From assembly GCA_937121175.1 (NCBI GenBank), contig CAKZKD010000003.1, forward strand, positions 248,001 to 312,000: 64,000 bases of DNA. Reading direction: 5' to 3'. Made by a program: the position numbers and the translations under genes. Positions 42,473 through 45,103 of this stretch are shown piece after piece. The stretch's first letter is position 1, and each line of letters begins with the position of its first letter. Under the pieces are notes generated by a model. That model was not told where the DNA came from and made no database searches. It was given only the letters and a program-made list of their open reading frames with translations. Origin of the DNA: an uncultured Flavobacteriales bacterium (GTDB lineage: Bacteria > Bacteroidota > Bacteroidia > Flavobacteriales_G > Salibacteraceae).

Positions 42473-42545
<73 letters not shown>

Positions 42546-42549
42546 CTAG

Positions 42550-42886: not shown

Positions 42887-43093
42887 ATGAAAAAAGTTTT
42901 ATCAATTGCTGCAGCAGTAGTTATGGTTGCTGGATTAGCTTCTTGTAAAAAAGATCGTACATGTGAATGTACTTGGGATGGTGATGTAATTTACACAGAA
43001 ACTCAAAAGTTGTCTAAGAAAGATGCTGAAGAGTGGTGTGAAGGATCTCAAACTTCTTCTGGAGTTGGTACTATCGAATGTAAATTGAAATAA
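42887..43093 (+). CDS. Cysteine-rich mini-lipoprotein 1
   Basis: A 68-residue lipoprotein with lipobox LASC (lipidated C20). The mature part has four further cysteines in the family pattern: CKKDRTCECTW at the N-terminus, then KLSKKDAEEWCEG and a last IECKLK. So the cysteine scheme after the lipid anchor is C-x-C ... C ... C, enough for two disulfide bonds. Three more members (43268, 43566, 44824) follow within 2.2 kb. I do not know the family's function. It has its own promoter box and terminator. Confidence 0.82.
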   Translation: MKKVLSIAAAVVMVAGLASCKKDRTCECTWDGDVIYTETQKLSKKDAEEWCEGSQTSSGVGTIECKLK

Positions 43094-43115
43094 ATCTTTT
43101 CAATTTAAAGTATTT

Positions 43116-43143
43116 AAAAGCCGACGCAAGTCGGCTTTTTTTT
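43116..43143 (+). terminator. Terminator of lipoprotein gene 1
   Basis: AAAGCCGAC-GCAA-GTCGGCTTT followed by a T run. Confidence 0.9.
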
Positions 43144-43229
43144 GCTCTAAAATGTAGATACTTAAATTTGAAAAAATGAATTTGCCAATAAAATTGGCTT
43201 TTATTCTTTTTCAGAAGAGCAAAAACGTT

Positions 43230-43237
43230 TATAATTG
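43230..43237 (+). promoter_or_regulatory. Putative -7 box of lipoprotein gene 2
   Basis: TATAATTG, one mismatch to TAnnTTTG. The same eight bases precede lipoprotein gene 4 (44795-44802). Confidence 0.4.
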
Positions 43238-43267
43238 CACCAATTCTAACTTATAAAATTTATTATT

Positions 43268-43489
43268 ATGAAAAAGTTTTTAATGATTGCAGCTGCAGGA
43301 TTGATGATAGCTGGAATGTCTTCTTGTAAAAAAGAGTACACATGTGAGTGCTGTACTACAGTAGCAGGTACAGAATCTTGTGCTTCTGCTAAAACTGCTA
43401 AATTGAAAAAGTCTGAAGCAGAAGACGCTTGTAACACAGGTACTTCTAGCGTAGCTGGAATCGAAACTAAATGTTCTATTAAAGAATAA
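43268..43489 (+). CDS. Cysteine-rich mini-lipoprotein 2
   Basis: A 73-residue paralogue of the gene at 42887 (lipobox MSSC, C20). It starts CKKEYTCECCTT, then TESCASAKTAKLKKSEAEDAC and TKCSIKE, so it has six cysteines after the lipidated one, two more than its relatives. Its leader (ATTCTAACTTATAAAATT) closely matches that of gene 1, which points to a fairly recent duplication including the promoter region. Own terminator; function unknown. Confidence 0.82.
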   Translation: MKKFLMIAAAGLMIAGMSSCKKEYTCECCTTVAGTESCASAKTAKLKKSEAEDACNTGTSSVAGIETKCSIKE

Positions 43490-43507
43490 GTTTCTTTCTA
43501 AGAATTT

Positions 43508-43538
43508 AAAAGCTCCGATTTATCGGAGCTTTTTTTTT
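43508..43538 (+). terminator. Terminator of lipoprotein gene 2
   Basis: AAAAGCTCCGA-TTTA-TCGGAGCTTTT with a T run. Confidence 0.9.
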
Positions 43539-43543
43539 GTTCA

Positions 43544-43551
43544 TACTTTTG
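43544..43551 (+). promoter_or_regulatory. Putative -7 box of lipoprotein gene 3 and the MauE-thioredoxin gene
   Basis: TACTTTTG (TAnnTTTG), 14 bases before the ATG at 43566. Confidence 0.5.
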
Positions 43552-43565
43552 GAAAAACGAAAATC

Positions 43566-43775
43566 ATGAATTTTAATACGTTATTGCTCTCAACCCTATG
43601 TATTGTTGTGCTTGTCGGTTGTAAAAAAGACTACACGTGTGAGTGCTCCGTGGGAAGCCAAACTATTGATGCTGTCACCACAAAACTTAAAAAGAAGGAA
43701 GCCCAAGATTGGTGTAATAATTTACAATCGAACACCAACGGCATCAATATCACTTGTAAGTTAGTAGAGGATTAA
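43566..43775 (+). CDS. Cysteine-rich mini-lipoprotein 3
   Basis: A 69-residue member of the family (lipobox LVGC, C19). The mature pattern is CKKDYTCECSV, then KLKKKEAQDWCNN and ITCKLVED, four cysteines after the anchor, exactly the spacing plan of gene 1. It is followed after 18 bases by the MauE-thioredoxin gene without a terminator, so the two form an operon. This links the lipoprotein family with a redox protein. Confidence 0.82.
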   Translation: MNFNTLLLSTLCIVVLVGCKKDYTCECSVGSQTIDAVTTKLKKKEAQDWCNNLQSNTNGINITCKLVED

Positions 43776-43793
43776 TTCCGTAAAATTTCGATA

Positions 43794-44729
43794 GTGTTTT
43801 CAAAGTCCTTTATTGCTAGATATATTCTGCAAATTTTAGTTTCAGTAGTTTTTTTGGCTTCTGCATGGTTGAAATTATATCCAATCGAACCGTTTGAGTT
43901 AACTCTTGTTGATTCAGGATTAGTGCCTTGGTCAATTGCACCGTACGCCGCTCGTTTATTGCTTTCGGTTGAAACATTCATTGGTGTCGGGTTACTTTTC
44001 AATACCAGATATACACTCGTATTATTAAAATCAGCCCTATACCTTACTTTATTTTTTTCAATTTATCTTTTGTTGCTTTGGCACTTTAGAGGAAACGATA
44101 TTAACTGTGGTTGCTTTGGAGCTAAATTGAGCCTTACTCCAATTGAATCTTTGGTTAAAAATGCGGTTCTAATCGTATTAATTTTAATTGCGATAAAATT
44201 ATATTCCCCAATTCAAAGAGGTTTTAAGTGGCTCTATGTTATCGGGCTACTTGGATTATGTGTAGCTCCTTTTGTATTAAACCCATTGGAAGGGTATTTC
44301 TCAACACCCGATAACACAGAGTATCCTTATGATTTTAAAAGCGAAATTATTCCCGATTCTATACTTTCTAAGGTTCCGTTTGATATTGAAAAAGGAACAT
44401 ACATTTTACCGTTTCTAAGTGTTACTTGTCCTCATTGCAAAGTAGCGGCACAAAAACTCACTGTGGCTAAGAGAAAGCACGAGTTACCACGAATACATGC
44501 GTTTTTTATTGGAGGTGAGAAAAAGATGGAGAAATTCCGTTTTGAGTCGAGCAGCGAATTGGATTACACCATGTATCAAGAAGAGTCTTTTTTTAAATTC
44601 AATAATGGAGTTTTACCTACAGTTCTCTTAGTGGTTGATGGTGAGGTAATTAGACGTTGGTCAGGTAGTGGATTCACTTACGAGGAAATTGGGAAAATAC
44701 CTGATTACGTGAAAGACTACGGTAAGTAA
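43794..44729 (+). CDS. MauE/DoxX-like membrane protein fused to a CPHC thioredoxin domain
   Basis: A 311-residue membrane protein, GTG start at 43794. The N-terminal MauE/DoxX-like part has about four helices (ILQILVSVVFLASAWLKL near residue 11 to LIVLILIAIKLY near 137) with NDINCGCFGAKLSL (C105, C107), the family cysteine pair. A fifth helix (about 147-163) leads to a periplasmic thioredoxin-like domain with active site TCPHC (C212, C215) and the cis-Pro loop VLPTVLLVVDGEVIRRW. CPHC is the DsbA active-site dipeptide and favours disulfide formation or exchange. The design resembles electron-transfer proteins such as VKOR-thioredoxin fusions. Co-transcribed with lipoprotein gene 3; gene 4 follows. 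Confidence 0.82.
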   Translation: MFSKSFIARYILQILVSVVFLASAWLKLYPIEPFELTLVDSGLVPWSIAPYAARLLLSVETFIGVGLLFNTRYTLVLLKSALYLTLFFSIYLLLLWHFRGNDINCGCFGAKLSLTPIESLVKNAVLIVLILIAIKLYSPIQRGFKWLYVIGLLGLCVAPFVLNPLEGYFSTPDNTEYPYDFKSEIIPDSILSKVPFDIEKGTYILPFLSVTCPHCKVAAQKLTVAKRKHELPRIHAFFIGGEKKMEKFRFESSSELDYTMYQEESFFKFNNGVLPTVLLVVDGEVIRRWSGSGFTYEEIGKIPDYVKDYGK

Positions 44730-44794
44730 ACTAATTGCCTGCGTATTTTACCCCAAATCGGCAGGGTGTCGTGAATTTGAAGAAAAAAAACAAG

Positions 44795-44802
44795 TATAAT
44801 TG
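44795..44802 (+). promoter_or_regulatory. Putative -7 box of lipoprotein gene 4
   Basis: TATAATTG, one mismatch to TAnnTTTG, 21 bases before the ATG. A TTTG (44776-44779) lies 15 bases upstream. Confidence 0.4.
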
Positions 44803-44823
44803 TACAAACAAACAATATTGAAA

Positions 44824-45054
44824 ATGAAAAAGTTAGGATTATTTATTGCCGCAGGACTAATGATTGGTGGGTTAAGTTCATGTGTAAAAGATTATGAATG
44901 CAAGTGTGTAACCACATTCAGTGATGGATCTGACTCACAAGAGGCAACACAAACTGTAAAAGGAACTAAAAAAACTTCTGAAGTTGCATGTGATGCTTTA
45001 GATGGTGAAACAAATGCCTTGGATGTTACCGCAACTACTGAGTGCTCAATCTAA
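44824..45054 (+). CDS. Cysteine-rich mini-lipoprotein 4
   Basis: A 76-residue lipoprotein. ATG at 44824 gives the signal MKKLGLFIAAGLMIGGLSSC (C20). The mature part keeps the family cysteine positions (VKDYECKCVTT, SEVACDAL, TECSI), although the sequence is the most divergent of the four, with more threonine and acidic residues. Own promoter box and terminator. Function unknown. Confidence 0.8.
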   Translation: MKKLGLFIAAGLMIGGLSSCVKDYECKCVTTFSDGSDSQEATQTVKGTKKTSEVACDALDGETNALDVTATTECSI

Positions 45055-45076: not shown

Positions 45077-45103
45077 AAATCCCTCTTCGAGGGATTTTTT
45101 TTT
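45077..45103 (+). terminator. Terminator of lipoprotein gene 4
   Basis: AAATCCCTC-TTC-GAGGGATTT with a T run, in the gap to the convergent HhH gene. Confidence 0.85.

Follow-up and report, generated by a model that had tools for sequence, protein, structure and literature searches.

The window analysed here, a stretch of 64,000 nucleotides from an uncultured Flavobacteriales bacterium (Salibacteraceae; GenBank assembly GCA_937121175.1, contig CAKZKD010000003.1, positions 248,001 to 312,000 of the forward strand), contains four genes for small cysteine-rich lipoproteins, hereafter mini-lipoproteins, grouped around the gene for a membrane protein in which a MauE domain is fused to a thioredoxin domain. 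The pairing of these lipoproteins with the fusion recurs across the class Bacteroidia and is probably no coincidence but a genuine system of enzyme and clients that has not been described before. The locus comprises the following features, given in positions of the window:

42887-43093, forward strand: mini-lipoprotein 1, 68 amino acids, with lipobox Cys20, CxC at 26/28, Cys51 and Cys65 (open reading frame, alignment and profile match)
43116-43139, forward strand: terminator-like hairpin 3' of lipoprotein 1
43268-43489, forward strand: mini-lipoprotein 2, 73 amino acids, with the four common cysteines and one additional cysteine pair (open reading frame and alignment)
43508-43533, forward strand: terminator-like hairpin 3' of lipoprotein 2
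43544-43551, forward strand: TACTTTTG, upstream of lipoprotein 3, the TAnnTTTG half of the Bacteroidota promoter consensus (consensus match only)
43566-43775, forward strand: mini-lipoprotein 3, 69 amino acids (open reading frame and AlphaFold2 model)
43794-44729, forward strand: membrane fusion of MauE with a TlpA/ResA-like thioredoxin, 311 amino acids, GTG start
44106-44114, forward strand: CGC motif, fusion residues 105-107, in the loop that joins transmembrane helices 3 and 4, predicted to be periplasmic (invariant, n=63)
44427-44438, forward strand: CPHC active site, fusion residues 212-215, in the thioredoxin domain (CxxC invariant, n=63)
44824-45054, forward strand: mini-lipoprotein 4, 76 amino acids from ATG 44824 (open reading frame and alignment)
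45077-45097, forward strand: terminator-like hairpin 3' of lipoprotein 4

The first-pass annotation of this DNA had described four small lipoproteins sharing a lipobox, a CxC and one middle and one C-terminal cysteine, and all four were recovered as open reading frames and aligned, with the lipidated cysteine, C26/C28 (CxC), C51 and C65 invariant (lipoprotein 1 numbering); in lipoprotein 2, however, the non-lipidated cysteines number six instead of four. It was likewise confirmed that lipoprotein 3 is followed by the fusion after a gap of 18 nt without a terminator hairpin. Since hairpins follow lipoproteins 1, 2 and 4 and none follows lipoprotein 3, the latter looks to be the only one of the four that is co-transcribed with the fusion, and these signals suggest an operon of lipoprotein 3 and the fusion, flanked by three lipoprotein genes that each end in a terminator of their own. 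Elements resembling TAnnTTTG also precede lipoproteins 1 and 2 (consensus matches only), and the start of lipoprotein 4 is most likely ATG 44824 rather than TTG 44800.

The MauE-like character of the membrane domain was upheld by a match to PF07291 over residues 10-134 (E 2.9e-23, 83.0 bits against a cut-off of 27). The AlphaFold2 model, built from an alignment of 63 sequences, has a mean predicted local distance difference test score (pLDDT) of 91.6 and shows five long membrane helices followed by the thioredoxin domain from about residue 190. Among 63 fusions, C105, G106, C107, G109, C212, C215 and the cis-proline P275 are invariant, and 35 have CPHC as active site, as does the window protein, 13 have CSHC and 58 overall have CxHC. 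Because basic residues gather in the predicted cytoplasmic loops (loop 4 has three Lys/Arg and no acidic residue; loop 1 has no basic and three acidic residues), both the CGC and the thioredoxin CxxC are predicted to face the periplasm. A likeness to DsbA had been proposed as well, and it stands for the CPHC motif and does not extend to the nearest fold: the DSBA domain (PF01323) scored 14.4 bits, far under its cut-off of 25.6 bits, and the 35 Foldseek matches of the thioredoxin domain with E <0.001 were headed by ResA. In structural comparison ResA reaches Z 13.8 with a root-mean-square deviation of 2.7 over 128 residues, and CcmG, TlpA and others follow at little distance. By nearest fold the modelled domain is of the TlpA/ResA type and not of the DsbA type; DsbA was absent among the structural neighbours listed, which does not in itself exclude a likeness to it. 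TlpA-family reductases have a C-x-P-C active site, unlike the CxHC of the fusion. A comparison of the fusion with plasmids gave no match.

The linkage between the two kinds of genes was followed in 80 fusion loci fetched from named Bacteroidia genomes other than that of the window, 70 of which had enough flanking sequence. The count that the first-pass annotation had called for, of lipoproteins within 3 kb of a fusion, gave a mini-lipoprotein on the same strand in 56 of the 80 loci (49 of the 70), two of the 56 having been added by eye on account of a longer spacer between the lipid cysteine and the CxC. The lipoprotein lies at most 200 nt upstream of the fusion in 49 of these 56 linked loci, which hold from one to five lipoprotein copies each, and sense and antisense lipoprotein frames at fusion loci stand at 100:1. 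The proximity in 56 of 80 loci together with this orientation argues that the arrangement is not due to chance. Moreover, among 60 relatives the full-length fusion is almost always adjoined by a lipoprotein gene, and when 63 fusions are placed on a tree, every deep branch contains linked members and the unlinked ones mostly fall together in a clade rich in Chitinophagaceae, so that the linkage is probably old. Across 395 Bacteroidia genomes, 69 carry both genes, 8 the fusion only, 41 the lipoprotein only and 277 neither (77 with the full fusion and 110 with the lipoprotein in total), which gives an odds ratio of 58 (p 1.3e-38) when genomes are treated as independent and shared ancestry is ignored. 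The contig scan was run with alignment A3, alignment A2 being too diverse. The pair lies within 720 bp in at least 47 of the 395 genomes, and that the genes lie side by side time and again in divergent lineages is a stronger argument than the co-occurrence statistics.

The first-pass annotation had made its proposal depend on conservation of the lipoprotein cysteines, and these are indeed the most constant part of the family. In an alignment of 77 lipoproteins (lipoprotein 3 numbering, here and below), only the start methionine, the lipid cysteine, C25 and C64 are invariant; conservation is above 90% at C27, C50, A46 and some positions near the signal peptide, and the remaining mature sequence is highly variable. 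Among members at the 80 loci the number of non-lipidated cysteines is four in 96, six in 3 and odd in none, after removal of spurious frames by eye and under a selection that demanded at least three cysteines and left odd counts possible. Where there are additional cysteines, as in window lipoprotein 2 and in L175, two are gained together, and the spacing from the lipid cysteine to the first cysteine of the CxC is exactly six residues in 95 of 100 lipoproteins. In some paralogues of the window's nearest relatives (L098-L100), CC replaces CxC, the helix cysteine is gone and a cysteine stands ahead of the helix; this coupled change, which could be one single event, suggests the pairing C27-C50 and hence C25-C64.

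The AlphaFold2 model of lipoprotein 3 reaches a pLDDT near 90 in the mature part, which is predicted to fold as strand-strand-helix-strand (beta-beta-alpha-beta), with C25 and C27 inside strand 21-29. No Foldseek match with E <0.001 was found for this fold in the PDB, and the best VIA Z, 4.2, lies in the chance range, which does not imply that the fold is novel. The 77 lipoproteins had no Pfam match at E 0.001, DUF6520 (PF20130) included, and those tested gave nothing above threshold in Pfam, NCBIfam, PHROG, PADLOC or PDB. Membership in the PG1828 family (NF050142) was considered and rejected, as 27 of the 77 match it weakly and those inspected reach at most 29.5 bits against a cut-off of 50, in the N-terminal part. 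The variability of the sequences and their copy number suggest that the lipoproteins may be exposed at the surface.

A stricter survey of the class, in which a lipoprotein cut-off of 1e-8 left 94 genomes with a clear lipoprotein, found that 28 of these lack the full fusion and that 81 have some related thiol enzyme. In the loci without the fusion the lipoprotein is often directly followed by a membrane thioredoxin protein of 218-230 residues (L181, L183, L184, L190) with CPYC, CPFC or CKYC, or by a MauE-like protein without the CGC (L191, L192). With a profile of the 218-230-residue protein, strong matches were obtained in 16 genomes; in the loci inspected a lipoprotein lies directly upstream in seven and adjacent but in opposite orientation in one, and a different small four-cysteine lipoprotein (CC...C...YNCD) is found directly upstream of the shorter enzyme at L204:1233-1409 and L206:2290-2469. 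Profile comparison showed the shorter enzyme to be homologous to the fusion in the thioredoxin domain and the preceding (last) transmembrane helix, so that it is not the unrelated replacement that it first resembled, and no independent recruitment is proposed for it. Since these CGC-less enzymes stand beside the lipoproteins and are homologous to the fusion, the membrane-tethered thioredoxin is the lipoproteins' more constant partner, and the CGC half is usual and not essential. The partnership put forward in the first-pass annotation is sustained by recurrent adjacency and co-occurrence, with the amendment that some lineages use a shorter enzyme without the CGC.

Overall, we consider with moderate confidence that the fusion is an inner-membrane thiol oxidoreductase, acting as oxidase or isomerase, and that the four-cysteine lipoproteins are its linked clients. 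The periplasmic CxHC thioredoxin domain would insert or rearrange two (sometimes three) disulfides in the exported lipoproteins, and these bonds would stabilise a fold of 50 residues that otherwise has little to hold it together. The CGC of the MauE domain, predicted at the same membrane face, would take electrons from the thioredoxin CxxC and deliver them to a further acceptor, which may be a quinone, in the way that DsbB or VKOR serves DsbA. We infer the electron transfer to the CGC, the use of a quinone and the client relation, and also the oxidative direction, which is favoured by the CxHC site, by the even count and placement of the client cysteines and by the lack of DsbB and VKOR in the genome of the window, where, at 100% completeness, neither PF07884 nor PF02600 gave a match at E 0.01 (DsbB was searched in this genome only). 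Oxidation or isomerisation with recycling through the CGC is thus the favoured activity.

Several observations weigh against this interpretation. Reduction is the commoner activity of thioredoxins with the TlpA fold, and the CGC is missing from the shorter enzymes linked to lipoproteins, so that the proposed electron exit is not universal; for these reasons the function could also be reduction or the maintenance of a metal site, and the four lipoprotein cysteines could bind a metal instead of pairing. The shared ancestry ignored in the co-occurrence test counts on the same side. As to whether the lipoproteins are widespread without the fusion, a circumstance that the first-pass annotation had named as damaging to its proposal, the picture is mixed: of the 94 genomes 28 are without the full fusion, but only 13 lack every related enzyme, and in the window's own genome 3 of 7 clear lipoprotein copies lie away from the fusion (C37, C3:342549). 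The copies at C37:73737-74458 (L005, L006) are two tandem paralogues beside a peptide-transporter-like gene, and no MauE gene was found in the stretch read around them.

One rival to disulfide formation is reductive metallation, in which the four cysteines would make up a metal site and the fusion would keep them reduced until the metal is loaded, in the manner of TlpA with ScoI and CoxB. The fold neighbours of the thioredoxin domain include TlpA, of which mixed-disulfide structures with ScoI and with cytochrome oxidase subunit II have been solved (4txo, 4txv), and the CxC with the two further cysteines could form a four-thiolate site. Nonetheless, we regard this explanation as unlikely, considering that the active site is CxHC, mostly CPHC, that six-cysteine versions gain a pair, and that in one clade CxC has become CC while the third cysteine has left the helix, a change easier to reconcile with disulfides than with a metal site of fixed geometry; metal genes were not seen to recur next to the pair, though no systematic test was made.

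CxC is a redox motif known elsewhere, and the lipoproteins might themselves be redox carriers that use their CxC to move disulfides or electrons between the fusion in the inner membrane and further proteins of the envelope. A near-invariant CxC at a nearly constant distance from the lipid cysteine would agree with such a role, and several diversified paralogues per genome could suit several targets. Against this stand the position of C25 and C27 within a modelled strand rather than at the beginning of a helix or in a loop that is exposed, the lack of a confident structural match to a known redoxin and the great variability of the non-cysteine sequence, and we judge the carrier role to be quite unlikely. 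The lipoproteins could also be fast-evolving surface proteins, for example in phage superinfection exclusion or competition, whose folding is merely helped by a nearby general disulfide enzyme, the pairing then reflecting shared export biology. Diverging paralogues at one to five per locus, the genomes that have lipoproteins without a related enzyme and a weak likeness of one lipoprotein to a Cor superinfection-exclusion profile (E 0.036; weak matches only in PHROGs) point in this direction. This explanation appears very improbable given that the linkage is probably old and class-wide, that lipoprotein 1 had no match in phage records and that the lipoproteins tested had none in PADLOC; besides, it would leave the relation of enzyme and client intact.

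A parallel to the proposed enzyme and its clients is provided by the DUF6520 (PF20130) proteins, which are likewise small and exported, carry four or more cysteines in those read and lie beside a MauE-family gene, but have no obvious lipobox and are unrelated in sequence to the mini-lipoproteins. All six copies found (L228-L233; genomes G061, G104, G229, G255) are located about 100 nt from a frame of about 450 residues on the same strand with a PCSCGG motif, and the three large neighbour proteins scanned all have a MauE domain above cut-off; no C-x-x-C motif occurs in the frames read of the adjoining MauE protein. That a second, unrelated family of small cysteine proteins stands beside MauE-type enzymes makes the enzyme-client relation likelier than coincidence. 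Additionally, VKOR (PF07884) matches were obtained in 23 of the 395 Bacteroidia genomes, mostly in open frames of 400-590 residues, and this rarity and setting indicate that VKOR may not be a general disulfide generator in Bacteroidia. We tentatively suggest, as a possibility that is still doubtful, that Bacteroidota, mostly without a recognisable VKOR, have an undescribed class-wide pathway in which each MauE-thioredoxin fusion would be a periplasmic thiol oxidase complete in itself, with the rapidly diversifying mini-lipoproteins, DUF6520 and other small four-cysteine exports as dedicated clients, each family having been separately recruited to a MauE enzyme.

The pair would represent a known kind of arrangement, a thiol oxidoreductase with linked clients, in a new form. 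Dedicated oxidase/client pairs include DsbL/DsbI with arylsulfate sulfotransferase and BdbB/BdbC with sublancin, where a thiol oxidase gene likewise adjoins that of a cysteine-bearing exported client; gene adjacency is conserved here too, whereas the enzyme family and the clients differ and the client relation is putative. The C-terminal domain has its fold in common with ResA, TlpA and CcmG, from which the fusion differs in its CxHC site (mostly CPHC) and in the attached MauE membrane domain. The BT_3928 family (NF045576) also carries an additional domain behind a membrane domain of MauE type and matches the fusion partially (49.2 bits against a cut-off of 250); a longer MauE protein of the window's own genome (C12), BT_3928-like in appearance, has no such lipoprotein beside it. 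Elsewhere in this genome (C6:101629-105006, L010) a MauE domain is fused behind a heavy-metal-associated-like domain, next to a CusA-like efflux gene and an AraC-type regulator that starts with a metal-binding-like CxxC segment. In the window, a tRNA-Met (CAT) gene lies at 42473-42546, upstream of the lipoprotein cluster.

MauE of the methylamine-utilisation cluster has the PF07291 domain in common with the fusion, and the passages on it in PMC7794033 cite a speculation that it aids disulfide formation in the methylamine dehydrogenase beta subunit and place MauE in candidate clusters for ribosomally synthesized and post-translationally modified peptides. Unlike in MauE/MauD, the MauE domain here shares one protein with a thioredoxin of TlpA fold, and the genes linked to it encode four-cysteine mini-lipoproteins instead of methylamine dehydrogenase. 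The same architecture, a multi-helix membrane domain with active cysteines and a C-terminal thioredoxin, is present in VKOR-thioredoxin fusions (PMC4555120), but the family is MauE here, with one invariant cysteine pair in the membrane domain compared to the four conserved cysteines of VKOR. No account of the lipoprotein/MauE-fusion pair was found in the literature searched (MauE with lipoproteins, DoxX, Bacteroides), in agreement with the first-pass annotation, which knew of no system of such composition; nor was an account found of disulfide formation in those members of this group that have neither DsbB nor VKOR.

Should the fusion prove to be an oxidase coupled to quinone, it would offer a concrete and testable answer to how disulfides are formed in those members of the group. 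It would also give MauE-family proteins a role beyond methylamine metabolism, and a role to several families of tiny cysteine proteins so far without an assigned function, with the adjacency of the genes providing a simple experimental handle on the redox state of a 50-residue client.

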